From the IMG/VR virus record IMGVR_UViG_3300027754_000366, positions 1 through 26,547 of that record: a stretch of 26,547 bases of DNA. One strand, 5' to 3'. The stretch's first letter is position 1, and each line of letters opens with the position of its first letter. The translations under genes and the position numbers were made by a program. Positions 1 through 26,547 of the stretch are shown in pieces. Source of the DNA: a virus. The notes beneath the pieces are model-generated. The model made no database searches. It was not told where the DNA came from and worked only from the letters and a program-made list of their open reading frames with translations.

Positions 1-2
1 AT

Positions 3-242
3 GTTTGTTATGATTCATTTATAAAGAATGAACAGGACATATTAAATATACAGATTGACTTAGATTACTTATTAAATACTCTACCAAGTAGATGGAGAGA
101 TATTGTAGTAGCTCATAATATTGAAGGGTTAAGTTTAAAGGAAGTAGCTGTTAAGTTTAATATAACATTTCAAAGAGTAGCAGAAATAGAGAAATTAGCA
201 ATGAAGAAGTTACAAGATAAAGTAAATGGAGTTAGTGTTTAG
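3..242 (+). CDS. RNA polymerase sigma factor, RpoH-like, C-terminal part (5' end outside window)
   Basis: The open frame enters from the left edge and ends at TAG 240-242, giving 79 visible residues. They contain a sigma-70 family region 4: LPSRWRDIV, then a helix-turn-helix (LSLKEVAVKFNI) and the recognition-helix tail RVAEIEKLAMKKLQ. From memory, E. coli RpoH ends with RVRQLEKNAMKKLR, which is unusually close, so I call it sigma-32-like rather than ECF or housekeeping. Region 4.2 reads the -35 promoter box, so the protein presumably redirects host RNA polymerase to phage promoters. Regions 1-3 are not visible and it could be a truncated protein. It is the only clear plus-strand gene here, is convergent with the minus-strand late block, and overlaps the end of the neighbouring gene by 11 bp. 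No terminator separates them. Confidence 0.8.
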   Translation, partial: VCYDSFIKNEQDILNIQIDLDYLLNTLPSRWRDIVVAHNIEGLSLKEVAVKFNITFQRVAEIEKLAMKKLQDKVNGVSV

Positions 243-492
243 TAAAATAATCCAGCCAGAGACGTCTATAGTCTATTTCAGCATTTATAGAAGCAGATTC
301 TATATCATTAATGGCACTCATTAGGGCGGAATTAAATGATTTATCGTTTCTAGTGAACTCTAAAGATACTGTACCATCTTGAAACTTAAGTAAAGCATCC
401 GTACACCCAGCTTCATATAGGCTGTCTTCAAGATTTTTAGTATCTTCATTGACGTTTGAAAGGTGTATGATAAAGGTATGAGAGGCCTCCAT
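232..492 (-). CDS. Conserved small protein of unknown function
   Basis: This 86-residue acidic protein has a predicted alternating beta/alpha pattern: SHTFIIHLSNV, then an acidic helix, EAGCTDALL, FQDGTVSLEF, and a helix SALMSAINDIESA. The combination 'HTF.. / LEDSLYEAGCTDALL / DGTVSLEF / A..SAI.DIESA' resembles a widespread bacterial small-protein family that I recall only as uncharacterised, sometimes labelled HTH or antitoxin-like, so I give no function. The ATG at 492 lies 4 bp after the stop of the zinc-ribbon gene, and an AGGGG sits almost against the start, which suggests translational coupling. Its 3' end overlaps the convergent sigma gene at 232-242. Both genes probably share the transcript from the promoter at 1151-1179. 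Confidence 0.7.
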   Translation of the reverse strand: MEASHTFIIHLSNVNEDTKNLEDSLYEAGCTDALLKFQDGTVSLEFTRNDKSFNSALMSAINDIESASINAEIDYRRLWLDYFTKH

Positions 493-496
493 GCCC

Positions 497-700
497 CTAT
501 TTCTTGCCCGAATGTGTTCTTGCAGAAATAAGGTCTCTATCCATTACTAATGGTTTAGAGCTAATGCCAACTTGTTTAAGTAGCATACCATCACATCCTT
601 CAGTCTCCGCACACGGAATTTCCTCTAATATATTTTCATATTTATCTAATACTTCTATTGTACCATCACACTTATTACACTCGTAACTATAAAGTGGCAT
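497..700 (-). CDS. FmdB-type zinc-ribbon protein
   Basis: This is a 67-residue protein that starts MPLYSYECNKC, the hallmark N-terminus of the FmdB/CxxC_CxxC_SSSS putative regulatory family. The metal ligands are visible as C8/C11 and C30/C36, so one zinc ribbon occupies roughly residues 5-40. The tail is basic (ARTHSGKK). Proteins of this family are common in bacteria and phages. A regulatory or nucleic-acid-binding role is proposed but not proven. The start is supported by GGAG eight bases upstream of the ATG. It is the first sizeable gene after the structured leader (701-1144) and is followed after 4 bp by the 86-residue gene. Confidence 0.8.
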   Translation of the reverse strand: MPLYSYECNKCDGTIEVLDKYENILEEIPCAETEGCDGMLLKQVGISSKPLVMDRDLISARTHSGKK

Positions 701-814
701 ATTAGTATCTCCAGATATTAAATGTTAATTAATTAAGTCCCCCTATGGTGTCTACGGGGGGAGTAGGTCAATACGCACATTTAGATTGTGTTTAGACATT
801 CAACACCATTATTG

Positions 815-829
815 TCCCTTATGGGGACT
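815..829. repeat. Short perfect hairpin in the leader
   Basis: GTCCC, a five-base loop (TTATG) and GGGAC form a compact GC-rich hairpin on either strand. On the minus-strand transcript it lies about 115 bases before the zinc-ribbon start codon. No U-run follows. Confidence 0.5.
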
Positions 830-989
830 AACCTATCATGTAGCTCTCCTAGTACAATCCGGGGCACACACTCGATAGATCACATACTATCCCTATACTC
901 AAGCCTTAATTCCTTCTCCTGAGGCTCCTGGAGAGTTTTAAGACCACTAAAACTATAGTGGAGATATTAGATCACCTTACCTTTTTATA

Positions 990-1076
990 TTAGGCAGGAG
1001 GTAAACAGTTGGGGCATTGAGGTGCTGCCTTCTGTCTTACTGCTCCTGCGTTATTAAACACGGTCGAAGCGCTCAT
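990..1076 (-). CDS. Candidate 28-residue peptide with a C-terminal CPNC motif
   Basis: The frame runs from ATG at 1076 to TAA at 990-992 and encodes a small peptide beginning MSASTVFNNAGAVRQK and ending with CPNCLPPA. An AGGAG lies upstream with a rather long spacing of about 12 bases. The composition looks protein-like, with no low-complexity stretch, and a CxxC pair sits near the end. It would be the first translated frame on the transcript from the promoter at 1151-1179, so it could be a leader peptide, a small zinc- or redox-type peptide, or chance. I know no family for it. Confidence 0.4.
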   Translation of the reverse strand: MSASTVFNNAGAVRQKAAPQCPNCLPPA

Positions 1077-1120
1077 TGTCAGTAGTATCTCCTATGTTTT
1101 AAAGCTTTGGGTCTTTGTTT

Positions 1121-1144
1121 AAGAGGAAGTTTTATCTTCCCCTT
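1121..1144 (-). promoter_or_regulatory. 5'-terminal mRNA hairpin
   Basis: Read on the minus strand, AAGGGGAAG, a six-base loop ATAAAA and CTTCCTCTT form a nine-pair stem with one G-U pair. It starts about seven bases after the -10 box at 1151-1156, so it would sit at the very 5' end of the transcript. Such 5' stems are known to protect phage and bacterial mRNAs from decay; that role here is inferred from position. Confidence 0.55.
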
Positions 1145-1150
1145 AATTAA

Positions 1151-1179
1151 AATATACCACTACCTATATTGACTGTCAA
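1151..1179 (-). promoter_or_regulatory. Sigma-70-type promoter for the leader / zinc-ribbon unit
   Basis: On the minus strand the -35 box is TTGACA (1174-1179, perfect), the spacer is exactly 17 bp, and the -10 box is TATATT (1151-1156, five of six). Transcription would start near 1144. The -35 box is part of a short palindrome, TTGAC-T-GTCAA (1169-1179), which could also be an operator. It lies 13 bp downstream of the coiled-coil protein stop, so it re-initiates transcription for the last two genes of the block. Confidence 0.7.
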
Positions 1180-1191
1180 CAGTTTATTTTA

Positions 1192-1437
1192 CTATTTACC
1201 GTAGAGTCTTTCTAATAACCTATCTAACTTACTTTCTATTCTTCCTAAGTCTTCTTTAAGATTAACCTGTTCATTTACAACAGTCTTAATCTCAAGTTCA
1301 ATTAGTTTATTAACCTCAGTACGATTTACTGCCTTGTCTAGTTTATCTTGCATATTAGATAACCTTTTCTCCACTGTACCTAAGTAAAATACTACGCCGC
1401 CAAGTATGATATCCGCAAGTAATTGTATTGTTTCCAT
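1192..1437 (-). CDS. Small protein with an N-terminal membrane segment and a coiled coil
   Basis: This 81-residue protein has a hydrophobic stretch near residues 5-21 (LLADIILGGVVFYLG) and then a long charged heptad-patterned helix to the end (KRLSNMQDKLDKAV ... RIESKLDRLLERLYGK). One membrane anchor followed by a coiled coil is seen in inner-membrane spanin subunits and in XhlA-like lysis accessory proteins, but no lipoprotein partner is visible and the topology is weak because an Asp lies inside the segment. I therefore leave it unassigned. The ATG at 1437 has AAGG about ten bases upstream. It is the last gene of the tail block, 20 bp after the fibre gene. Confidence 0.6.
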   Translation of the reverse strand: METIQLLADIILGGVVFYLGTVEKRLSNMQDKLDKAVNRTEVNKLIELEIKTVVNEQVNLKEDLGRIESKLDRLLERLYGK

Positions 1438-1457
1438 TTTGGAAATGCCTTATTATC

Positions 1458-2792
1458 TTAGGTGCTTAAGTTTAAAAAGGGCAATGCAGTTGACGCGCTA
1501 GGCTCTACCAATATCAAGGTATTCACCGTAGGGAACGCACCAAAAGCACTTGTCTGTTGGTAGGCTATCGGCATACTTGTGGTAATGTCTGTTTTTCCGC
1601 CAAAATATGGAAAGTTACTTACGTTTGCCGCAAGGCAAGAAAATTGAGCAGTATCTGCGTCAGTATTAAATGCAAGCCAATATAAAGTGTTTGCACTTAA
1701 TGTACGGTAGGAGGGGGTACCTCCAGTAAGTCCCGTTGCGCCAGTGCTTATATTTCCGGAGTCATAAAAAGCTGACCCAGTTGGGCGGGAGGTTCCGGCG
1801 GCACTATTATACATAGCTAACCGCATATTTTTTGCGGCCTGTAATGTAGAAATATTAACTACAAATGAAAAGAAACTAAAGTCAGTACTAGATATAAATG
1901 GCACAAAATATACAGTACCAATGGTAAGCGTACTTGCCGTCGGTATAGTTGCTTTTGTTACTCCTAACACCCCCGGCCCATAATAATACCCAGAGGTAGT
2001 GCATATTGGAAATCCCTTGTTAATAGTATTTAACAATACTCTTTTATTTGTAGTGGCTGAGGTGTCATATGTCATTACATAGTCCGCCGCATAATCCGGA
2101 GTACTGTCCACACTTCTTCCCACTATATCCACAACAGTTGCATTACTGTTTGCTGAAGCTGTCACTTCACCTGTCAGGGCCGCCCTTGAAATGGTAGTTC
2201 CTGCAATTGTAAGACTAACCCCTGCCGTCAATGCCTCAGGCACCCCCGTACCTGCAGTGGCCCTACCTATTAAGCTAGCTGTTGCTATATTGGCCATTTT
2301 TGCTAGGGTGACAGCTCCACTCGCAATAGTAGTAGCATTAGAGTTAGCGGATGCTGTTACATCGCCAGTAAGTGCCGTTCTTTGTACTTGTATTGTGGAC
2401 CCAGCACCTGCATCGACTATTGCATTTGTAGTAGAGGTAGTCAATACTCGTCCACCCGTAAGTCCTGTCTCACTTACTGCAGTTATAAAAGAGCTTGAAC
2501 CATTAAATCCACCACTAGCCACATTATCTAATGTCTGTATAGTAGTCCCAGAAGAATCTTTAATTACTAATTTATAAAGTACAGTAGTACCTAACCAAAT
2601 ACCGTTACCACTATTTGGTCTGCCATTAGCGTCTAAGTCTACATAATTGCCAACTGAAGTTAAACCTCCAGCATCTGTATATGTAGGGGTTGGGGTCGTA
2701 GTCCCGGCTATGTAAGTATATACTTTACCAGAAGCTAGGGGAGAGCCTGAAGCATCTGAGAATTGTAATTCAGGGAATAAAATAGCTGCCAT
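1458..2792 (-). CDS. Tail fibre / tailspike-type adhesin
   Basis: The 444-residue protein begins with a particle-binding domain typical of podovirus fibres (residues about 1-95): LFPELQFSDASGSPLASGKV, an AGTTTPTPTYTDAGG segment, VDLDANGRP, and a TIQTLDNV end. Next come about 110 residues of Ser/Thr/Ala-rich repeats in which the ALTG(D/E)VTASANSNAT motif appears twice, once followed by VTLAKMANIATASLIGRATAG. The C-terminal half (residues about 250-444) is a beta-rich domain with no recognised enzyme motif and probably contacts the host receptor. The repeat module is shared with the 736-residue fibre at 14782-16992. The ATG follows the upstream stop by two bases with GAGGG nearby. No C-terminal chaperone domain is visible. 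Confidence 0.8.
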   Translation of the reverse strand: MAAILFPELQFSDASGSPLASGKVYTYIAGTTTPTPTYTDAGGLTSVGNYVDLDANGRPNSGNGIWLGTTVLYKLVIKDSSGTTIQTLDNVASGGFNGSSSFITAVSETGLTGGRVLTTSTTNAIVDAGAGSTIQVQRTALTGDVTASANSNATTIASGAVTLAKMANIATASLIGRATAGTGVPEALTAGVSLTIAGTTISRAALTGEVTASANSNATVVDIVGRSVDSTPDYAADYVMTYDTSATTNKRVLLNTINKGFPICTTSGYYYGPGVLGVTKATIPTASTLTIGTVYFVPFISSTDFSFFSFVVNISTLQAAKNMRLAMYNSAAGTSRPTGSAFYDSGNISTGATGLTGGTPSYRTLSANTLYWLAFNTDADTAQFSCLAANVSNFPYFGGKTDITTSMPIAYQQTSAFGAFPTVNTLILVEPSASTALPFLNLST

Positions 2793-2794
2793 GT

Positions 2795-4552
2795 CTATTG
2801 GCCCTCATCTTGTTGTTGCTGTTGTGGATTATCAAATATTATTCTACCGGGTATTACAGGGGCGGATGGTCTTACTGATGAGCCTATTGCATTAATTCCA
2901 CCTAAAGTAGCCTCACCTACATCTGCAACTTTCTCTCCTACCTTACCTGCCCTTCTTAGTAGATTAAATATCTTTTCAGTTCTAGTTGCAGAAGCAGTTT
3001 GTTCTTGCATCAGCTTAGTAAACTGAGCACTGAACTTAGTTTTACCATTTAAAAGACTTGATACTGCACTGGCCATCTTCTGTGGGTCCAGTTCAGAAGA
3101 CTTTAAGCCTACCATCCTACCTATTGTAGAGTTAGGTTGTGATTGGGCTTGTTTAGTAGCATTTACAAATCCAGTTAATGCTTTTAGTTTATCTGCAGTT
3201 TCTTGATTGCCTATCTTCGATACGTAACCTATTACTTGTGCTTGCTCCTGGGCATCTTTACCTAAAGTTCTTGACAGTTGCTCTAATGGTGTTAGGTTAG
3301 AGTTTCTGACTAAGTCTTTACGCAAGCCATCTAGTAACATGTTATGTAGTACTTCTGGTCCCTTTTCAGTCTTCATAACTAAATCAATGTCGTTTTGTAT
3401 TAAGTCATACTTAGGAGATTTAATAGTTTTTAATAAATCCGTACCAATGTTTTTAGATACCATACGACTTTGTTTTAATAAATCTTGAGCTTCTGCGAAT
3501 CCTGGTAGTTTATCCCTAAATGAATTTGTAATTTCAGCCACTGCTCCTTTATTGCCGTCACCATCTATTTCACCAATCATTTTACGTAATTGATTATAGT
3601 AGGCTAAGCTTCCTTTGTCTTGTACTGCAAAAGCATCTAATGTGCCCTCTGAGGCATCTAGTGCCTTTTTAGCGGCAGTTAATGTCTTAGGATTGACAAC
3701 ATTAAAGGCGTCAATAATTTCTTGTGGTGCTTGTTTGCTTGCAAGTACTTCGTCAAATTGAGCTGAAGCTTGTTTGGCAGTATCTCCTTTTAGTTTGGCA
3801 AAGAAATCTACTTGTGCCTGATAATCTTCAGGCTTTAGTCCAGCTTTCTTTATGCCTAAGTCTTTATAGATTTGCCCAACTTCAGATTTCATTGCAGCAT
3901 GAATTTCATCTGCTGTCTTTGCGGCTGTTTCTAAAGCTTTCTTATTAGCAATTTCACCTAATCCTAGTTTATTTGAGATTATATCTTTTGCTTTACCGGC
4001 AGCATATGGCACTACATTACTTAATGCTCCAACAGTTCCTCCTAATGCGGCACCTAAGGCACCTTTAGAAACTGCTTGGCTTCTAGTATCACCTTCCCCT
4101 GAGGCCTGTAACCCGCCAGCTAAACCACCTAAAGCAGCGGCAGGAATGCTTGCACCAGCTACGGCGCCAACAGGTAAGGTATTACCAATACCGTATAAGG
4201 TATCAGCAGCACCTTGAGATACTCCATCTTGAGCACCTGTCCCATAGAATTTATTGGAACCTTCTCTCATGAATTGGTTAAATTTACCAATACCGGCCTC
4301 CATCTTATCTGCTGTTTCGGGGCTTACCAACCTAGTTGCCCCCGCGGCAAGTTCTGCAGGGGCCATAAGTACACCTTGTGCTACACTTTGGGCACCTGAA
4401 CGTAAGGCAGACGGAATGTTAGAGGCCGTAGCTTCTGCTTTCTTAACTGCTTCAGCTCCAAATATCTTATCTGCCTGGGCTGCTTTATCGGCAGTACCAA
4501 GTTCAGCTTCTAACGCGTCTAGTTCTTGTTGTTCTGCTGGAGTTAATGCCAT
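2795..4552 (-). CDS. DNA ejection protein candidate (585 aa)
   Basis: The protein begins MALTPAEQQELDALEAELG, a start I associate with ejection/DNA-transfer proteins of P22-like phages. Hydrophobic Gly/Ala-rich stretches follow at about residues 122-152 (GAVAGASIPAAALGGLAGGL) and 162-187; they could insert into the host membrane during DNA delivery. The rest is mostly helical and Lys/Gln-rich, ending with a Q-rich tail. No lysozyme or peptidase motif is seen. It is the last of three large consecutive genes between the tail hub and the tail fibre, the place where P22 carries its three ejection proteins (gp7, gp20, gp16). I infer the role from that position, the size and the membrane-active segments; the match to one specific P22 protein is not certain. 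Confidence 0.7.
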   Translation of the reverse strand: MALTPAEQQELDALEAELGTADKAAQADKIFGAEAVKKAEATASNIPSALRSGAQSVAQGVLMAPAELAAGATRLVSPETADKMEAGIGKFNQFMREGSNKFYGTGAQDGVSQGAADTLYGIGNTLPVGAVAGASIPAAALGGLAGGLQASGEGDTRSQAVSKGALGAALGGTVGALSNVVPYAAGKAKDIISNKLGLGEIANKKALETAAKTADEIHAAMKSEVGQIYKDLGIKKAGLKPEDYQAQVDFFAKLKGDTAKQASAQFDEVLASKQAPQEIIDAFNVVNPKTLTAAKKALDASEGTLDAFAVQDKGSLAYYNQLRKMIGEIDGDGNKGAVAEITNSFRDKLPGFAEAQDLLKQSRMVSKNIGTDLLKTIKSPKYDLIQNDIDLVMKTEKGPEVLHNMLLDGLRKDLVRNSNLTPLEQLSRTLGKDAQEQAQVIGYVSKIGNQETADKLKALTGFVNATKQAQSQPNSTIGRMVGLKSSELDPQKMASAVSSLLNGKTKFSAQFTKLMQEQTASATRTEKIFNLLRRAGKVGEKVADVGEATLGGINAIGSSVRPSAPVIPGRIIFDNPQQQQQDEGQ

Positions 4553-6093: not shown

Positions 6094-7974
6094 TTATAAT
6101 CCTCCTAACGCCATTGCCCCAAGACTTAAAGCTAAACCACCACCATTAAACATAGCTCCGAAGTTATTAGCTTTATTTTTTCTATCTTGTTGGTCTATTA
6201 GCACTTGTAATTGAGCATTCTGATTTGCTCTATCTGCTTCAATCCCAGCTGATTTCATTTGAGCTGTACCATATATATCATTACCATATACATTTTGGCC
6301 TGCTACACTGTTACCGAGGTTGCCGTATATGTTTGCAGTAGTATTGGCAGCTTGTTGCCCACCTTGAAGCATATTTGATAAACCACCTTGCATCAATGCA
6401 TTTTGATTATTTGCAGTAGCATTGCTTTGACTTTGTAGATTACCTAAGAATTGATTGCCCATACCTGAATATTGGTTAGTTAGGTTTTGAGTCATAGAAG
6501 CTTGTTGTCCAATCATATTATTGGCAAACTCTACACCTTTACCTAATAAGCTATAGTAATTACTTAATCTGTTATTAGCCAAGTTGGCACCAGTCGATAA
6601 TACATTATTAGCAAGTTGTCCAGCGTAAGGTACAATATACTGACCGGCTGCATTAGTTCCAACCTTTTGTAGTTCTGCCAGTGTTTGACCACTATCTAAC
6701 ATACCTCTAGCTGCTTGTGCATTTTGTACAGCATTAGTACCAGCACCCACAGTAGCGTCCATTACCTTTCTAACTACATCAGAATTCATCCATTGATTTA
6801 CTGCCCCAGTAGCTGGGTCAATTAATTTGGATAATATATCATTAGCTTCTTGTCCGGCATTAGGTCTTGAATTGGTTTCGGCAGACATATTGCCAAGTAC
6901 TTGTTGGATATATTGAGACAATCCGCCTTGGCCTTGTTGTTGCTGCTGGGTTTGTCCTTGCTGTTGTTGTGCAAATTGACCTTGTTGTTGCTGTTGCCCT
7001 AATGTTACTGGGCCTTGCTGAGCTCCTGGAATTCTACCTGACTTCACCAACATACCCATTTCAGCTGGCGTTAGTTGGGCAGGTGTATTGTTAGCAGGTC
7101 TGGCAGCATTTTGCTCTTGCATTTTCATATCAGCTAATTGCTGAGTCCATGAATTGTTTTTAGCAAGACTGTCTAAAGACTGTATCATCTGAGGATCTGT
7201 TGTTTTAGCCTTTTCTGCATTAATGGCGGCTAAATAATCTTTTTCCTTAGTTTGCAAGCCTGCCAATTGAGCAGCTTTAGCTTCTGCTACTTTAGGATCT
7301 ACTGGAGCTTGGTACGCTTGGAATGCAGGCTTAGCGGCAAATTGATCTGGTGCCCGTGTAGCTTGTTGCTGTGCTTGATACCTTTGGAATAAAGAATCTA
7401 ATTGTGATTGTTGCGCAGCAGTTTGTTGTGCATTAGCATCTGCAGCTCGTTGTTCTGGGCCCACGTATGGACCAGATGCTCTTCCTAGGGCCACATTCAT
7501 TTCATGTTGTTTTTGTGCTTGTGATTTACCAGGTTGTGCTGGAGCTTGCATAGGGGCTTGTTGTTGTACAGGAGCTGCAACAGGGCCGCCAAATATAGAA
7601 TCCATAAAGTTAGATGCTTGTCCAGCAGCAGTATTATAGGCCCAACCTGGAATAGATTGTAATAATGGAGCAGCATTAATACCTTGCTGATTAAATATTT
7701 GTGTAGCTTGTGGTATTGCAGCTTGTTGTTTAGCCTGACCATTCATGCCTAAAGCATCCATATATAGCCCTGAGCTTTGTTTGGCTAGTGCTTGATATGG
7801 GGCGAGCAAACTAGCAGCTTGGTCTGTGAGCTGTTTAAAGTAATCAACATTAGCCCCAACTGTAGCATCTGTCCTGACCTGTACACGACCTAAAGCATCT
7901 TGTTGACCTTGTGCCGCTTGGTTTAAAGCTGCTTGTAAGGTCCCGTAATCTTCATTTGTATATTGTGAATCCAA
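6094..7974 (-). CDS. Ejectosome-type virion protein with a glutamine-rich centre (626 aa)
   Basis: The N-terminal third is Ala/Gln-rich. A Q-rich low-complexity stretch covers about residues 321-350. The C-terminal half carries the pattern AQAARGMLDSGQTLAELQKV followed by GQYIVPYAGQLANN, which matches a motif I recall from phage DNA-transfer proteins (A.RG.L.SG.t..aL...). The last ~25 residues (NNFGAMFNGGGLALSLGAMALGGL is the longest hydrophobic part, partly quoted) form a Gly/Ala-rich hydrophobic tail that could enter a membrane. The start is a TTG at 7974 with AGGGG seven bases upstream; no ATG in frame fits better. The gene sits just after the small beta protein and before two other ejection candidates. 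Confidence 0.7.
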   Translation of the reverse strand: MDSQYTNEDYGTLQAALNQAAQGQQDALGRVQVRTDATVGANVDYFKQLTDQAASLLAPYQALAKQSSGLYMDALGMNGQAKQQAAIPQATQIFNQQGINAAPLLQSIPGWAYNTAAGQASNFMDSIFGGPVAAPVQQQAPMQAPAQPGKSQAQKQHEMNVALGRASGPYVGPEQRAADANAQQTAAQQSQLDSLFQRYQAQQQATRAPDQFAAKPAFQAYQAPVDPKVAEAKAAQLAGLQTKEKDYLAAINAEKAKTTDPQMIQSLDSLAKNNSWTQQLADMKMQEQNAARPANNTPAQLTPAEMGMLVKSGRIPGAQQGPVTLGQQQQQGQFAQQQQGQTQQQQQGQGGLSQYIQQVLGNMSAETNSRPNAGQEANDILSKLIDPATGAVNQWMNSDVVRKVMDATVGAGTNAVQNAQAARGMLDSGQTLAELQKVGTNAAGQYIVPYAGQLANNVLSTGANLANNRLSNYYSLLGKGVEFANNMIGQQASMTQNLTNQYSGMGNQFLGNLQSQSNATANNQNALMQGGLSNMLQGGQQAANTTANIYGNLGNSVAGQNVYGNDIYGTAQMKSAGIEADRANQNAQLQVLIDQQDRKNKANNFGAMFNGGGLALSLGAMALGGL

Positions 7975-11732: not shown

Positions 11733-11761
11733 ATTGTAACACGGGTATACACCTTTGTCAA
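11733..11761 (-). promoter_or_regulatory. Sigma-70-type promoter before the membrane gene pair
   Basis: On the minus strand the -35 box is TTGACA (11756-11761, perfect), the spacer is exactly 17 bp, and the -10 box is TACAAT (11733-11738, five of six). The start of RNA would fall near 11726, directly before the AAGGAG of the 61-residue membrane protein. The promoter overlaps the inverted repeat at 11742-11772. Confidence 0.75.
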
Positions 11762-11772
11762 GTGTATGCCCG
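11742..11772. repeat. Operator-like inverted repeat around the -35 box
   Basis: CGGGTATACAC (11742-11752) and GTGTATGCCCG (11762-11772) form 11-bp arms with a single mismatch and a 9-bp spacer. One arm covers much of the promoter spacer; the -35 hexamer lies mostly in the centre. The geometry suits binding by a dimeric repressor. No T-run follows on either strand, so a terminator is less likely. Confidence 0.6.
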
Positions 11773-11802
11773 CATTAGTTATACTGGAAATACTATATCT
11801 TT

Positions 11803-12012: not shown

Positions 12013-12453
12013 TTAGTCATTGTTACTTTTACTTGTAGTTAACTGGTCTAAATATTTCTTTAAGACTGAGCTTAAATTTAAACCGGCCACTATCTTCTCT
12101 ACTGAACGAGATACTACATATCCGCCCATTCCCACTTCAACTAAATCCCATAATCTGTCATATTCTGCTGGGCTCATATGACTTGGAACTAAGCCGAAAA
12201 ATCTAGATACAATTAAACCTACAAATATGGTCATAGTTATAGGTCTCCAATTCCTAGCTAACCAACTATCAGATTGAGCTTCTGCTGCAACAACTAGTGC
12301 TGCTGCTCTTTCTCTCTCTGCATTAGAGCTAGCTAATGTACTGATTGCTTCAACTGCGGTTCCTACTACCTCACCTTGTTTGACCTTGGTGTTGAAGAAG
12401 GAACCGAAGATTGATCCTAGTGCGGAAATTAATCCGCCAATGATGCCGCCCAT
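12013..12453 (-). CDS. Holin, three-TM gene-transfer-agent type
   Basis: This is a 146-residue protein. A Gly-rich amphipathic N-terminus (MGGIIGGLISALGSIFGSFF) is followed by a helix with SNAERERAAALVVAAEAQSD. Then comes the signature WLARNWRPITMTIFVGLIV and, near the end, WDLVEVGMGGYVVSRSVEKI. The 'NWRP' turn, the following membrane helix and the Gly-rich last helix match what I know of the holin family first described for gene-transfer-agent release (three TM segments). Holins form pores in the inner membrane and time lysis. AGGAG six bases upstream supports the ATG. No endolysin is next to it. Confidence 0.78.
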   Translation of the reverse strand: MGGIIGGLISALGSIFGSFFNTKVKQGEVVGTAVEAISTLASSNAERERAAALVVAAEAQSDSWLARNWRPITMTIFVGLIVSRFFGLVPSHMSPAEYDRLWDLVEVGMGGYVVSRSVEKIVAGLNLSSVLKKYLDQLTTSKSNND

Positions 12454-19089: not shown

Positions 19090-19737
19090 TTATACCCCTG
19101 CCTTAGCGACGTCTACGTCAGTGTGATTGTTGATTTGAACTAATATATTAGCATTATTTGCAGCTACGTCATTGTTCAATGGGTCACCAGAAACTCCAAC
19201 TATGCGCAATTGGTAGGTAGAGTTACCTGTTGCCATTGCAGCGGAGTCAGCTTCAGTTGAGGCAAGGCCGGTTACCGTTGAACCACCAGAACCGGTTATA
19301 TTGGTGTTTTTGCCGACATCGGTTGCAACAAAAGCAGCTGAGGCTTGCATTTCAAAAATGGTATCTGGGTGGTCAGCAACAAAAACTACGGCTTCAGTTG
19401 ATGCTGGTTTATATCCTGCTCGGAAGCAAGAAGCATCTGCAGCAGAGAAACCGATCTTTTGGACGAAGCCGGTAATGGCATTGGTATCACCATTAGCTGC
19501 GCGTTCAACTTTTTGCAAAGCACCTGGGCCGAAGGCTTCAGCGCCCCCTAGCATGGCCCCTGCTGCTAGTTTAATGGCTGCGGTATTGGAGTCCCCAGCG
19601 ATACGGGAAACTGCGTCCCCAATATATAAAGCGGTAGCATAGGAAGCTGCTACATAATAAGCGCGTAAAGGGACGTCTCTTGATCCGTTCCTCATGCACT
19701 TAGCAATTGCGCCATGTTTGGCGTTTAGATTAGCCAT
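19090..19737 (-). CDS. Capsid-associated / decoration protein candidate (215 aa)
   Basis: The protein begins MANLNAKHGAIAKCMRNGSR and contains YYVAASYATALYIGDAVSRI, FGPGALQKVERAANGDTNAI, and the phrase EAVVFVADHPDTIFEMQASA. Ala, Thr and Asn are abundant and the pattern is beta-rich. The 'Y.GD.V.......AI......G....ITGFV' order resembles proteins encoded directly before the capsid gene in several environmental podoviruses; by position and composition it is likely a capsid decoration protein. No catalytic motif is visible. GAGGT precedes the ATG at 19737. It is separated by one base from the capsid start, so the two are probably made in related amounts. Confidence 0.6.
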   Translation of the reverse strand: MANLNAKHGAIAKCMRNGSRDVPLRAYYVAASYATALYIGDAVSRIAGDSNTAAIKLAAGAMLGGAEAFGPGALQKVERAANGDTNAITGFVQKIGFSAADASCFRAGYKPASTEAVVFVADHPDTIFEMQASAAFVATDVGKNTNITGSGGSTVTGLASTEADSAAMATGNSTYQLRIVGVSGDPLNNDVAANNANILVQINNHTDVDVAKAGV

Positions 19738-21365: not shown

Positions 21366-21620
21366 TTACTCCTCCCAATTAACATGTTCATTTAATAAAT
21401 CTTTTAGTTTTGACATGTCTGAAATAGTTTGTAGTTCTAAAATCCTACCTCTATTTTCTGCTATTTTTAAGTCGTAATTGTCTTGTAGTTGTATCTTAAC
21501 AAGGCTTTGATATAACCCATCAGTTCTAACCTGTAGGGCCTTTATTAGGGCCAGTGTTACCGGATCTTCTAGCCATTGCCGCAACCTTGTCACGCTCAAT
21601 GTTTTGATATTCTCGTTCAT
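21366..21620 (-). CDS. Small protein overlapping the portal gene
   Basis: The 84-residue protein is helical: SVTRLRQWLEDPVTLALIKA, LYQSLVKIQLQDNYDLKIAE, RGRILELQTISDMSKLKDLL. The first 31 codons lie inside the portal gene's 3' end in another frame. Its ATG at 21620 has GGAG six bases upstream and the rest of the gene is non-overlapping, so the frame is likely real. Small ORFs at this place are common after podovirus portal genes; their function is unknown. It ends 3 bp before the start of the co-chaperonin gene. Confidence 0.65.
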   Translation of the reverse strand: MNENIKTLSVTRLRQWLEDPVTLALIKALQVRTDGLYQSLVKIQLQDNYDLKIAENRGRILELQTISDMSKLKDLLNEHVNWEE

Positions 21621-23595
21621 TATCGTCTCCAGACTTTAATTTAGCAGCATCTAGTATATGTCTTACTCTACTATCTTGGTCTACTTGTTTTTGTCTTGAA
21701 GCTTCTAACTGTAATCTAGCTGGAGTTGCTTGAGTTTCTGCCATTATCTTCGCAGTGTTAGCTTCTATTTCTTTTATTCTAGCTTCAGTCTCTGCTGCAG
21801 ATATGTGCATTCCTTGTTCTTTTAACTCAAGTTCCTTCATCTTGATTTGAATGTCTTGTTGCATTTTTATCATATCAGGATTTGGTTGTTCCTGTTGCGG
21901 AGGAGGAGGAACTAATGCTTCTATGTTCTCAACATCCATCGCTTTATAATATGTAACTGCTAACATGGTAGGGTCTGTGGCGCCCATTTGAGCGAACTGT
22001 AACCCTGCTTGCATTATTGATTGAGCTTTATTCATAGCCTCTAATTCTGTAGAATCTTCAATATCTACAATTGGAACTATGTCTAAGCTTTCTAATACGT
22101 AATCTTTAATGCGACCAAATTCATCGTACAACTCTTGAAGGTCTTTTTGTTCTGGGTCAATTAGAGTTAAGTATTCTTGTTCGTTTAAATGTCTTGAATT
22201 TAATCTTACAAGCTTTTGTAGCTCTTTTCTAAACCCTCTAAATATACGTCGTTGAATAGAACTGTATACTTTTAAACCTTGTTGCATTAACATTGCAACT
22301 GAGTTAGGTGATGCGTTAGTTACGTCTGTGGTGCCGGTTAATACTTCACTAGTAGACGTTAAATTATTAGCACCTTCGACCAACTGGCCTAATAACTGTA
22401 ATAGAACCATTGAAGGTTCTTTATATGACATTGGGACTATGTTATCTTTTATCGAAGCACCTGAAGATGAATCTACAGTTACCCAATCCCCAGGCCCAAG
22501 TAACATATCATCTTTCTTTATTCTTAAATCTTTGCCGATGAAACCACCTTGAACTGTGGCTAATGTACCAGCATTAATTAACTGATTTAATAAAGTATTG
22601 ATGGTATGGTTAGTATCTAATAACAATGTACCAAAACCTAAACTAAAGAAGCTACCATCAGGAGATGGAATGAAGTGATAGTCAGTGAAGTATTCTTCAG
22701 CTACTATTCTCTTTACTTGTCCTTTATCATTTAGGAATACTGTTCGATCTTCTAGAAATTCGAATCTTGGGGCTATACGTAGAACACATTTATGTGCAAT
22801 GTGATACACAACAATATAGGGTTCTTTTAAGCCGTCTTTATCTAAGTCTAAATATGTATGTTGTTCTAGCAGTTCATGATAAATTGGTTCTGGGTCATTC
22901 TCATCCATTACCATATCTTCAGGTTTATATTCATCTAAGAATAAACCATATCTTTGATGTTCTACTATGTCATTGCCAGTTAGATATATCAGTTGCGATA
23001 TACGACCTGCTGACTCAATATTCTTAATTCCATTGTTAATGAATATTTGGTCATAAGGTACAAGCTCAGATTTATTCTGTTCTGTTATTGGGTCGTAGTA
23101 AGTCTTCGTAAAGCAAGTACCTACAACTGCTAATTGGTTGTGTAACTTATCTCTTTCTGAGAACCAGTTTGGCATCTTTTCTTGGATTTGCCAGTTAAGA
23201 TGTTGAGATACTCTCCATCCTTTCTTAGCTTTCAATCCATCTCTATCTTTGCCTAATACTTTGTATTTAGCTACTTTACCTGACTTTGACATCTCAGCAA
23301 CTGAACGAGATGAGAACTGCATAACAGCTGTAGCTATTAATGGGTAATGAATATTAGATGCTCCAACCCATGGAGTATCCTTTTGTTCCTTTTCCAATAA
23401 GCAAAGCTTCATGGCTTCTGCTGCGGTATCCATCCATTTATGCATAGACTTCTTATCTATGTCCCACTCTTTTACAACTTTAGCGCCTATAACTTCTAGT
23501 TCTTCTTCTGTTAGAAGTTCAGCAACATTATCCATGCCGGCTAAATCTTCTAGATTCCTAGCTTTAACTTCTTTTAGTTCGTCGTTATCTGACAT
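21526..23595 (-). CDS. Portal protein
   Basis: This 689-residue protein is close in size to P22 portal (725). The N-terminal part has KEWDIDKKSMHKWMDTAAEA and WVGASNIHYPLIATAVMQFS (wing). The middle contains AVVGTCFTKTYYDP, VPYDQIFINNGIKNIESAGR and HFIPSPDGSFFSLGFGTLLL, then LDTNHTINTLLNQLINAGTL, all typical of portal stem and crown. PPPPQQEQP near residue 568 links to a long C-terminal helix (IKMKELELKEQGMHISAAET ... ARIKEIEANTAKIMAET), which probably forms a coiled barrel like the P22 portal. Twelve copies form the DNA channel and recruit the terminase. The ATG is 5 bp after the terminase stop. The end overlaps the next gene by 95 bp. Confidence 0.9.
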   Translation of the reverse strand: MSDNDELKEVKARNLEDLAGMDNVAELLTEEELEVIGAKVVKEWDIDKKSMHKWMDTAAEAMKLCLLEKEQKDTPWVGASNIHYPLIATAVMQFSSRSVAEMSKSGKVAKYKVLGKDRDGLKAKKGWRVSQHLNWQIQEKMPNWFSERDKLHNQLAVVGTCFTKTYYDPITEQNKSELVPYDQIFINNGIKNIESAGRISQLIYLTGNDIVEHQRYGLFLDEYKPEDMVMDENDPEPIYHELLEQHTYLDLDKDGLKEPYIVVYHIAHKCVLRIAPRFEFLEDRTVFLNDKGQVKRIVAEEYFTDYHFIPSPDGSFFSLGFGTLLLDTNHTINTLLNQLINAGTLATVQGGFIGKDLRIKKDDMLLGPGDWVTVDSSSGASIKDNIVPMSYKEPSMVLLQLLGQLVEGANNLTSTSEVLTGTTDVTNASPNSVAMLMQQGLKVYSSIQRRIFRGFRKELQKLVRLNSRHLNEQEYLTLIDPEQKDLQELYDEFGRIKDYVLESLDIVPIVDIEDSTELEAMNKAQSIMQAGLQFAQMGATDPTMLAVTYYKAMDVENIEALVPPPPQQEQPNPDMIKMQQDIQIKMKELELKEQGMHISAAETEARIKEIEANTAKIMAETQATPARLQLEASRQKQVDQDSRVRHILDAAKLKSGDDNEREYQNIERDKVAAMARRSGNTGPNKGPTG

Positions 23596-23600
23596 CGTAG

Positions 23601-25115
23601 TTAATATCCTGTTGTAGGGTTTCTACCTAAGTGATTGTTTAGTCGGGAAGTATATACTGTCTCGTCGTCGGAATCTCGATAGATTTGACCTATATGATTG
23701 GACATTACTCCATACCTAAAAGCATCCATTGCGTGGTCCTTTTGTCCTTTCGCTATCTCTGTTACACCCGTCTTTTTATTGGTGTGGTATCTATATAGTC
23801 TATACTCTTCTAGGGTTTTTGTCAAGGTACTAAAGAATTTAACACCTCCAGTACTTAGCTTATTGTTACATTCCATGATGCCGGCCTGTACTCTATTATC
23901 CCCTAATCTTAAGTCTAATCCCATATCTTTATAGATTTGGAATGACTTTAATCCATCGTGTGAAGAGGTCTTCAAGGCTGAAGGATCTATTACTCCTGTC
24001 ATCCATTCTCCTCTTCTTTTAATTGCAGCTACATGTGTTGAAGGTAATGCTTCTTCGCTATAGTACTCATCATAAACATATAACGTATTGGTAACTGGGT
24101 CTTGAGCAAACCAGAGTGCTGCTGTGCACTTATAGCCTATGTCCACTGAGTAGAACTTAGTGAAATGAAGTGGTATCCTGAAAGGCTCTACAACGCATGT
24201 GGATTCAGGTGTAGTGAATACTTTACCACTACCCACTACTGGTATACCCTTCATACGAGCTTCACGCTGGTGAGGCAAATAGGTGGCTTCTAGCTGTACT
24301 TTCATTTCAGCTGGCAGCATTGCCTCTGGTACATCATTCCATGTTACCTGTTCTACATAGGCAGAACGTCCCGGTACTATATGGTCTAATGGCATCCTAC
24401 CTTGTGGTAAGAAATGTAATACTGTATCTGATAGGCCCGACAGAGGAGTAAAGTATAAGGCTATACGACCATTAACGGTAGCACAACGAGTTACACACTC
24501 CTCATATACATCTTGAGGGCATTCTTCATCTAAACCTACGAAATGAACTGAGGTACCTTGGAATGATTCCCGGCCTTGTTCATATGATTTAAAGCTTAAG
24601 GTAGCTAGTCCACCACCTGCTCTTTTAATGACTACTTCGGAATAGGCATTAGGAACGCCTGGTTTCGACCGTACGTCGAGTATTGAGTCTTTAGGTATAA
24701 GACCAGTACCTATGCTATGCGCAGGTCCTAGGAGCTTGTATTGCTGAATATCTCTAACGTCACCATGGCTTACACCACCAATCCAGATATTGATATCTTC
24801 AGCTGGATTAAACTTCATGCCTTTGAACCATGGATGGTCAGCATAGGCACCAGTAGCGTGTAGGTATATCTCAAATGCACATGTTTCAGACTTACCAGAT
24901 CTATTAGAACCTAATAAGCATCTTTCTAAGAACCCTACACCTGCATTCATAAATGCTATCTGTTTAGGGAACTTATCTATCGATAAAGGCCCTGTCTCTG
25001 GGAAGTATGTTTTAGCTTTATTATATTTAAGGCGTACATCTAGTTCTTGTAATGACTTTAGTAAGTCTATCTTCTGGTCTTTAGATAAACCTTTAGTAAT
25101 ATTATTTAATGTCAT
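23601..25115 (-). CDS. Terminase large subunit
   Basis: The 504-residue protein has both domains of a DNA-packaging motor. Residues 69-77 (GSNRSGKSE) are a Walker A loop, residues 191-198 (HFVGLDEE) Walker B with the catalytic Glu, and YFTPLSG at 221-227 fits the coupling motif. The nuclease domain starts at FYSVDIGYKCTAALWF with Asp325; Asp377 (GVIDPS) and the C-terminal KDHAMDAFRYGVM (Asp460, Asp464) complete the RNase H-like acidic triad. It cuts and packages concatemeric DNA together with the portal. It overlaps the small-subunit gene by 14 bp. The protein is complete. Confidence 0.95.
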   Translation of the reverse strand: MTLNNITKGLSKDQKIDLLKSLQELDVRLKYNKAKTYFPETGPLSIDKFPKQIAFMNAGVGFLERCLLGSNRSGKSETCAFEIYLHATGAYADHPWFKGMKFNPAEDINIWIGGVSHGDVRDIQQYKLLGPAHSIGTGLIPKDSILDVRSKPGVPNAYSEVVIKRAGGGLATLSFKSYEQGRESFQGTSVHFVGLDEECPQDVYEECVTRCATVNGRIALYFTPLSGLSDTVLHFLPQGRMPLDHIVPGRSAYVEQVTWNDVPEAMLPAEMKVQLEATYLPHQREARMKGIPVVGSGKVFTTPESTCVVEPFRIPLHFTKFYSVDIGYKCTAALWFAQDPVTNTLYVYDEYYSEEALPSTHVAAIKRRGEWMTGVIDPSALKTSSHDGLKSFQIYKDMGLDLRLGDNRVQAGIMECNNKLSTGGVKFFSTLTKTLEEYRLYRYHTNKKTGVTEIAKGQKDHAMDAFRYGVMSNHIGQIYRDSDDETVYTSRLNNHLGRNPTTGY

Positions 25116-25638: not shown

Positions 25639-25713
25639 AAATATTAGTTCTTCTTAATATATTAATTAAATATTTACCAACTGTATAGTAAATAGGGTGT
25701 TGGAGGAAGGTCA

Positions 25714-25761
25714 ATGGTAATTGAAGATTCACCACATACACATTTAAGGGGAGTTAGGTAG
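25714..25761 (+). CDS. Possible 15-residue peptide with a very strong ribosome site
   Basis: GGAGGAAGG lies four to eleven bases before ATG 25714 on the plus strand, and the frame (MVIEDSPHTHLRGVR) ends at TAG 25759. The ribosome site is the best in the region, but the peptide is very short and no plus-strand promoter is obvious, so it may be chance. Confidence 0.2.
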   Translation: MVIEDSPHTHLRGVR

Positions 25762-25924
25762 TTTGTGCATATGCTACTTATATACTAGTAGTTATATATA
25801 GTGTATAATTAATACTGTTATTAGATTAACTGTAGGTGGTTATTCTGCAGAAGCATCTGGTTGTGGATTAGTCCTGGCTTAGTGTCGTTGTTAGTATATT
25901 ATATATATTCAATATCATATATAT

Positions 25925-25953
25925 TTTATATCACACTTTTAATCAAATGTCAA
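25925..25953 (-). promoter_or_regulatory. Sigma-70-type promoter for the packaging/head operon
   Basis: On the minus strand TTGACA (25948-25953, perfect) and TATAAA (25925-25930, five of six) are spaced by exactly 17 bp. The start of RNA is expected near 25918, about 280 bases before the small terminase gene, with an AT-rich leader. TTACC/GGTAA repeats begin 29 bp upstream of the -35 box. Confidence 0.75.
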
Positions 25954-25981
25954 GTACCCTGTGATGTAGGTCAATCATAGT

Positions 25982-26062
25982 GGTAAGTTACCTACGGTAA
26001 CAATAAGTTACCTTTCAGTAAGTTAGTATCAATATTTGATCCTTAGTTACCCAATATGGGTA
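25982..26062. promoter_or_regulatory. Operator- or iteron-like repeat cluster
   Basis: TTACC occurs in both orientations: GGTAA-G-TTACC (25982-25992), GTTACC-TAC-GGTAAC (25987-26001, perfect arms), a further TAAGTTACCT at 26004-26013 (20 bp, two helix turns, from the identical copy at 25984-25993), and GTTACC at 26046-26051 joined to the palindrome TACCCA-ATA-TGGGTA (26048-26062). The cluster is just upstream of the promoter at 25925-25953. It could bind an activator or repressor, or be part of a replication origin. Confidence 0.55.
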
Positions 26063-26129
26063 CTATAGTGCCTCTTTTCAGTAGTGAAGGTCCCATTATA
26101 CCCCCCGTACTTAAGTAACTTATATACGT

Positions 26130-26159
26130 TATTATCGTATTGCCGATCTTTCGATAATA
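26130..26159. repeat. Inverted repeat enclosing the GCCGATC motif
   Basis: TATTATCG (26130-26137) and CGATAATA (26152-26159) are perfect 8-bp arms around a 14-base loop that carries the ATTGCCGATCTT motif, which recurs at 26194. Confidence 0.5.
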
Positions 26160-26250
26160 GTATCATACCCTTACAGTGATTTTACCATAAATCATTGCCG
26201 ATCTTATTTGTTACTTATCGCCAGTGTGTGGTAGATTTTACCATGTTATG
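26139..26250. repeat. Two imperfect 55-bp direct repeats
   Basis: ATTGCCGATCTT starts both units (26139 and 26194, 55 bp apart) and ATTTTACCAT lies near the end of both (26179 and 26235, 56 bp apart). The middles differ, so only the ends of the unit are conserved, as expected for paired protein-binding sites. The second unit runs into the hydrophobic plus-strand frame. Confidence 0.45.
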
Positions 26251-26434
26251 GCGATTATGTACATATGGTGCTGTGGTCCTCTGTGGGGCTATATCATACG
26301 GTAGTGGCTATGTATGTATAGGGTATTGCGGTAAATCGTCTTGTAGGGCTTTGTATTGCGTTGTGGTGGTAATCTTATTGGCCATTGTTGGTCATTTGTT
26401 GGCCGTATTGTTAGTTGTCGTCCTTGTTAAGTAG
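26195..26434 (+). CDS. Doubtful hydrophobic, cysteine-rich small protein
   Basis: A plus-strand frame with TTG at 26195, or more likely ATG at 26243, ends at TAG 26432. The 79-residue (or 63-residue) product is hydrophobic and Cys-rich (RLCTYGAVVLCGAISYGSGY, YCGKSSCRALYCVVVVILLA) and ends with a long Val/Leu run, so it could be a membrane peptide. It has no convincing ribosome site, and the strand is G/T-rich, which creates Val/Leu/Cys/Gly codons by chance. It would face away from the late operon. I keep it only as a candidate. Confidence 0.2.
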   Translation: MPILFVTYRQCVVDFTMLWRLCTYGAVVLCGAISYGSGYVCIGYCGKSSCRALYCVVVVILLAIVGHLLAVLLVVVLVK

Positions 26435-26489
26435 TCTGTGCACATGCATGCTATTACCCAATTTGATTCACTATACGATTAGGCTATCC

Positions 26490-26547
26490 CTCTCTCACTC
26501 TCACCCCCACTTCTTTTTACCCTCCCCCCCCCCCCCTCCCCCCCCCC
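26490..26547. other. Degenerate poly-C end, probably artefact
   Basis: The sequence becomes a CT/CA run and ends with long C homopolymers. The change is abrupt and of low complexity, typical of poor-quality read ends or poly-G artefacts in reverse orientation. I treat it as not biological. Confidence 0.7.

Follow-up and report, generated by a model that had tools for sequence, protein, structure and literature searches.

Translational attenuators are leaders that hide the Shine-Dalgarno sequence by pairing it with upstream bases; some have a leader ORF and others do not, and leaders of this type, in which the ribosome site is sequestered, are already a known kind of element. The region described here (positions 701-1144, read on the minus strand) resembles them in its long 5' UTR with a candidate leader ORF, and in two ribosome sites that are each paired with an anti-Shine-Dalgarno strand, with a possible exchange of partners. 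It differs in being predicted from sequence, with no identified ligand, stalling motif or relatives, and in that the FmdB-like gene has its ribosome site paired in both computed conformers. GOLLD and ROOL are described as large ornate phage RNAs, both with profiles in Rfam; many GOLLD RNAs exceed 800 nt, and both RNAs are often located near tRNA islands, which is a tendency and not a strict criterion (PMC12286853). The present region would likewise give a phage-encoded RNA that is large and, by prediction, structured, but unlike GOLLD and ROOL (PMC12286853) it has no Rfam match and its window has no tRNA gene. OOP, DicF and VpdS are phage small RNAs (PMC12197685); they share with this region the origin in a phage, whereas the RNA predicted here is ∼440 nt long, with no terminator found and no known target. 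None of the titles and abstract beginnings listed by the literature searches concerned a structured leader before a phage FmdB gene, and a description of one may still be in print.

The window, i.e., the whole stretch of DNA that was analysed, is the complete IMG/VR record IMGVR_UViG_3300027754_000366 (26,547 bases). Because a sigma-factor-like gene is cut by the left end, the record is probably a fragment; what is left of this gene is a C-terminal piece of sigma-70 region 4 (3-242, plus strand), which converges on the end of the 86-aa gene and overlaps it by 11 nt. The gene content is podovirus-like, with a long minus-strand late operon, and the main features are listed in Table 1. The terminase large subunit matched 433 phage records, every one below 60%, the best-ranked match among named phages being EBPR podovirus 1 at 42%; two genome contigs matched at 39 and 41%. 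In the viral contigs the terminase matched IMGVR_UViG_3300009181_000425 and 23 other loci (31-41% identity, best segment), and the former was the sole viral-contig match of the portal and of a 496-aa tail protein. This contig is at least 99.9% identical across window positions 5872-26546 and ends short of the 701-1191 region.

The sequence-only reading had pointed to about 440 bases that encode nothing obvious, and this held: no ORF of at least 60 aa is present on either strand. The gap extends from the end of an 81-aa gene (1192) to the start of the FmdB-like gene (700) and measures 491 nt (701-1191). By our own gene list, on which all gap sizes are based, it is the largest internal gap, the remaining internal gaps above 40 nt being 124 and 115 nt long; its GC content is 0.393, vs. 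0.347 and 0.322 for these two, respectively. Inside it the transcribed strand has nothing longer than two 28-aa ORFs, and the opposite strand nothing longer than one of 44 aa. Gaps of at least 300 nt are frequent in distant relatives (18 annotated gaps in four records, folded below as 20 segments), so the size of 701-1191 alone is unremarkable. A longer protein gene that is simply broken in this genome had been named as the finding that would overturn the reading; it was not supported, as stop codons occur in every minus-strand frame. Longer readings of the minus-strand frames scored negative on the codon score.

The proposal that the region has a strong promoter of its own was confirmed by consensus matching. 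The extended -10 promoter in Table 1 carries 11 of 12 consensus bases with a 17-nt spacer and TG preceding the -10 box, and it ties with a site at 11761 for the best score in the window; the score requires A and T at -10 positions 2 and 6. Of 100 shuffled windows, 3 held an equally good site (an expectation of 0.03 per window), and shuffling the local 500 nt 1000 times produced such a site once. Transcription would start at ∼1144, approximately 7 nt past the -10 box. No intrinsic terminator turned up when positions 1-3000 were scanned for the consensus, shuffles averaging 1.8 sites there; the transcript should therefore continue into the zinc-ribbon gene and then into the 86-aa gene, which is probably carried on the same transcript as the FmdB-like gene. 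The -35 box lies within an inverted repeat, ACTGT-TG-ACAGT (1172-1183, minus strand), and as judged from the sequence this repeat could be an operator.

Table 1. Coordinates of the features at the locus and of landmark genes in the window.
Feature	Position	Strand	Remarks
86-aa gene	232-492	-	phrog_2620, E 2.3e-16
FmdB-like zinc-ribbon gene, 67 aa	497-700	-	Cys 8, 11, 30, 36; sub-cut-off profile matches
Shine-Dalgarno of FmdB-like gene	708-714	-	predicted sequestered by 934-928; is the domain 2 closing strand
Domain 2	708-934	-	closed by UCUCCAG (934-928) / CUGGAGA (714-708)
Domain 1	940-1115	-	closed by AAGACC/GGUCUU; core hairpin 1049-994
Anti-Shine-Dalgarno strand UAUCUCC	960-966	-	complementary to 1092-1086, also to FmdB site 712-706
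Candidate upstream ORF, 28 codons, MSASTVFNNAGAVRQKAAPQCPNCLPPA	990-1076	-	ATG with GGAG upstream; inside domain 1
Upstream ORF ribosome-binding site GGAGAUA	1086-1092	-	paired with 966-960
5' hairpin at predicted start	1121-1144	-	9 bp, pair probability 0.97
Sigma-70-type extended -10 promoter	1151-1179	-	consensus match; -35 TTGACA 1179-1174, TG 1159-1158, -10 TATATT 1156-1151
GTA-type holin	12013-12453		
Portal	21526-23595		phrog_1216; SU10_portal slightly under cut-off
Terminase large subunit	23601-25115		

The several stems that had been noticed by eye were borne out by folding, the minus-strand RNA being more stable than its shuffles (z about -3). The minimum free energy of the RNA 1144-701 is -122.9 kcal/mol, with z -2.99 and none of 100 shuffles as stable in one run, and z -2.96 and 2 of 200 in another; smaller shuffle sets gave z -2.22 (40 shuffles) and -2.74 (16 shuffles). 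Mean positional entropy was 0.561, vs. 1.065 in shuffles, and 6 of 200 shuffles were as low. The plus strand of the region gave z -1.24, with 10 of 100 shuffles being as stable and 69 of 100 having an entropy as low. In a sliding scan of 33 windows (444 nt, 25-nt step), which is partly post hoc because the boundaries 701-1144 came from the sequence-only reading, the window at the predicted RNA start came first on both counts, its energy of -122.9 (runner-up -121.6) and its entropy of 0.561 (runner-up 0.738) each being the lowest of the scan.

On the scale of the genome, 59 minus-strand windows of 444 nt gave a mean z of -1.25 (sd 1.38), and in a list of 120 entries, which holds the region itself twice per strand, the region ranked 22nd by z with 40 shuffles and 9th with 16. 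Of 112 other minus-strand windows, 22 reached its raw energy and 3 its entropy. In 150-nt folds the region is unremarkable (best rank 51 of 704, counted from 0). Among gaps of at least 300 nt hand-picked from four distant records, a z of -2.9 was reached by 3 of 40 strand-segments and a fold at least as well defined by 1 of 40. We concluded that the distinguishing trait of the region is the definition of its full-length fold. Alcaligenes phage vB_Af_QDWS535 has a gap where its late operon ends (19279-19688), and the two strands of this gap gave z -4.3 and -5.2.

The predicted fold consists of a 5' hairpin followed by two domains. When the parts were folded alone, with a bias in their favour since they had been chosen from the fold, the 5' hairpin gave z -3.26 (0/200 shuffles as stable), domain 1 gave z -2.76 (3/200) and the core hairpin of domain 1 gave z -3.42 (1/200). 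The entropies of domain 1 and of its core were not unusual (34/200 and 35/200 shuffles, respectively). Domain 2 alone was not exceptional (z -1.54, 12/200 shuffles as stable); the probability of its closing helix is 0.98, and 0.96 when 30 extra bases are included.

The Shine-Dalgarno of the FmdB-like gene has a mean pairing of 0.976 in the predicted ground state. Pairing of at least 0.95 at this site was obtained in 8 of 200 leader shuffles (about 1 in 25), and among 29 genes (itself included) folded with 444 nt of upstream sequence the FmdB site is the most strongly paired, the next reaching 0.93. The ribosome-binding site of the upstream ORF is paired with a mean probability of 0.96 (0.94 with 30 extra bases). 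The 10-mer GGAGATACTA is common to both ribosome sites (at 1092 and 712); it has only two copies in the window, both strands considered, each directly ahead of an ATG within the region. Some repeated 10-mer also arose when the region was shuffled, in 200 of 2000 cases. As judged from these complementarities, the two ribosome sites could trade partners: a forced swap of 966-960 onto the FmdB site costs 2.2 kcal/mol, and a fully free FmdB site costs 5.8 kcal/mol. In both computed conformers the FmdB site stays buried.

FmdB zinc ribbons begin with MPxYxY, and the name of the TIGR02605 model gives two CxxC pairs for FmdB zinc-ribbon proteins. The 67-aa product has the MPLYSYECNKC start, and its second Cys pair is C-x5-C instead of CxxC. 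It scored 27.8 bits against TIGR02605 (curated cut-off 31.3) and 25.6 bits against PF09723 (curated cut-off 34.4); the product thus resembles FmdB-type proteins by matches that lie under the curated cut-offs. The 86-aa protein matched three records of phages Cyrano and SSU5, and the labels of its family conflict (HicB antitoxin, AlpA-like regulator and excisionase). A search of 19 records for the zinc-ribbon family and the 86-aa family (E up to 0.01) detected them in the window only; in the control genomes for these searches the zinc ribbon was matched in 10 of 14 and the 86-aa family in 0 of 14.

Relatives of the region were sought in several collections. In blastn searches from which records very near the window's own were possibly excluded, no match was obtained with window 1-2400 against phages (E 1e-5), with 690-1190 against phages (E up to 1), or against plasmids (E up to 0.01). 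The FmdB-like, 585-aa and 86-aa proteins had no match in the viral contigs, and a search of IMGVR_UViG_3300009181_000425 with window 1-3000 gave nothing. When 690-1190 was compared with 17 records (13 of the 23 terminase-relative records plus four phages), allowing E up to 10, four of the 17 gave matches, all of 12-16 nt. Rfam 15 gave no match in the window at gathering scores and none in 480-1450 at E up to 5, which argues against a known RNA family. No tRNA gene was detected in the window, itself probably a fragment.

We interpret the region, tentatively and with a probability of about 0.45, as a structured cis-acting 5' leader of the FmdB-like gene. Of the three options offered by the sequence-only reading (a regulatory noncoding RNA, a leader controlling the FmdB-type gene, or several micro-ORFs) the leader fits best: the promoter aims at the FmdB-like gene, no terminator was found, and the Shine-Dalgarno of that gene forms the closing strand of domain 2. 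The micro-ORFs fared less well, because on the transcribed strand one ORF of at least 20 codons, and not several, has both a start codon and a purine-rich site. That this 28-codon ORF (1076-990) is a small-protein gene expressed for its own sake, with the stems being incidental, appears very improbable to us. It has an ATG with GGAG 13-16 nt upstream, and the CPNC at its C-terminus resembles, as far as the residues go, a zinc knuckle; but the distance between this site and the ATG is long, the codon score of 0.055 falls under those of all 27 genes that built the score (0.143-0.495) and ranks 32nd of 241 small ORFs, and the product has no PHROG, Pfam or phage match. In an exact-pattern scan of viral contigs, a 19-mer at the ORF start had no match and an 18-mer from the domain 1 core was found in four contigs, which form two near-identical pairs. 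The 18-mer matches lie in unrelated phage protein genes (at 7249-7266 of one contig and 7578-7595 of another) without further similarity to the region, and we take the recurrence as chance; the frame used in those genes reads AGAVRQ, as in the upstream ORF, which speaks in favour of a coding role for the ORF. An element that acts as DNA, for example in replication origin or packaging, is the reading to which we give the least credence: the stretch is bordered by AT patches of the TTAATTAA type (725-736 and 1143-1150), yet the structural signal is confined to one strand and a strong promoter match points through the stretch.

The closest rival to the structured leader is a functionless long 5' UTR, in which the promoter is real and the region that separates the late operon from the two accessory genes is a neutral spacer, decayed DNA or some unrecognised element. 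The many annotated gaps of at least 300 nt in distant relatives, the modest genome-wide rank of the fold and the absence, in these searches, of any relative of the region that would show conservation all agree with this; still, we consider it rather unlikely, as the definition of the fold is strand-specific, the best-folding window coincides with the predicted RNA start, and the GC content exceeds that of both other internal gaps. We rank after it, as less likely again, a free-standing regulatory or structural RNA of ∼440 nt that is transcribed from the promoter at 1179, is processed from the FmdB-like mRNA or ends just before it, and acts in trans. Such an RNA would account for the promoter of its own, the hairpin at the predicted 5' end, the definite fold with its best window beginning at the predicted start, and the closure of the fold at 708, ahead of the coding region. 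Against it, the 3' end has no intrinsic terminator that could be found, the last helix is formed with the next gene's ribosome site, and no Rfam match was obtained over the ranges given above.

If the region is a structured leader, the promoter at 1179-1151 would start the RNA at ∼1144, and the RNA would carry, in this order, the 5'-end hairpin, domain 1 with the 28-codon ORF, and domain 2 ending on the Shine-Dalgarno of the FmdB-like gene, before extending through the FmdB-like gene and the 86-aa gene. With both ribosome sites paired in the predicted ground state, translation would be low, and opening of the 934-928/714-708 helix would switch it. The opener might be a protein, the pairing of another RNA, or ribosomes on the upstream ORF that shift the pairing partners. 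The gap, the promoter match, the strand-specific fold and the complementarities are computed features of this DNA; transcription, sequestration in the cell, any regulation, the exchange of partners and translation of the upstream ORF are what we infer for it. A bolder version, which we regard as improbable, would make the region a new class of phage RNA switch of ∼440 nt, with duplicated ribosome sites and two anti-Shine-Dalgarno strands that trade partners, in which translation of the leader peptide or binding of the zinc-ribbon product sets the expression of the FmdB-like and AlpA/HicB-like genes; the support for such a dual-site switch is thermodynamic. A structured leader here would provide an example of translational control by a long folded leader that can be put to the test, from an uncultured phage lineage that has very few relatives in the databases, and it would open a way to the role of phage-encoded FmdB-like zinc ribbons; if the interpretation is wrong, the region is an ordinary long untranslated region.

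Two other sites in the window are worth recording. At the second top promoter match (11737-11777, minus strand), the -35 box TTGACA (11761) is located at the tip of a strong hairpin with a minimum free energy of -21.2 for 45 nt, and the 150-nt window at this position has the lowest z of 704 (-5.31). This arrangement of sequence suggests a terminator and promoter in one, or a promoter that occludes itself. At the right end, the ∼900 nt upstream of the terminase genes (25639-26547) contain no 60-aa ORF on the operon strand and terminate in a G-rich run. The contig IMGVR_UViG_3300009181_000425 extends beyond this run by ∼395 nt (contig positions 1-395) that appear by eye to be GC-richer and dissimilar to the phage, which suggests an integration junction or an assembly chimera.
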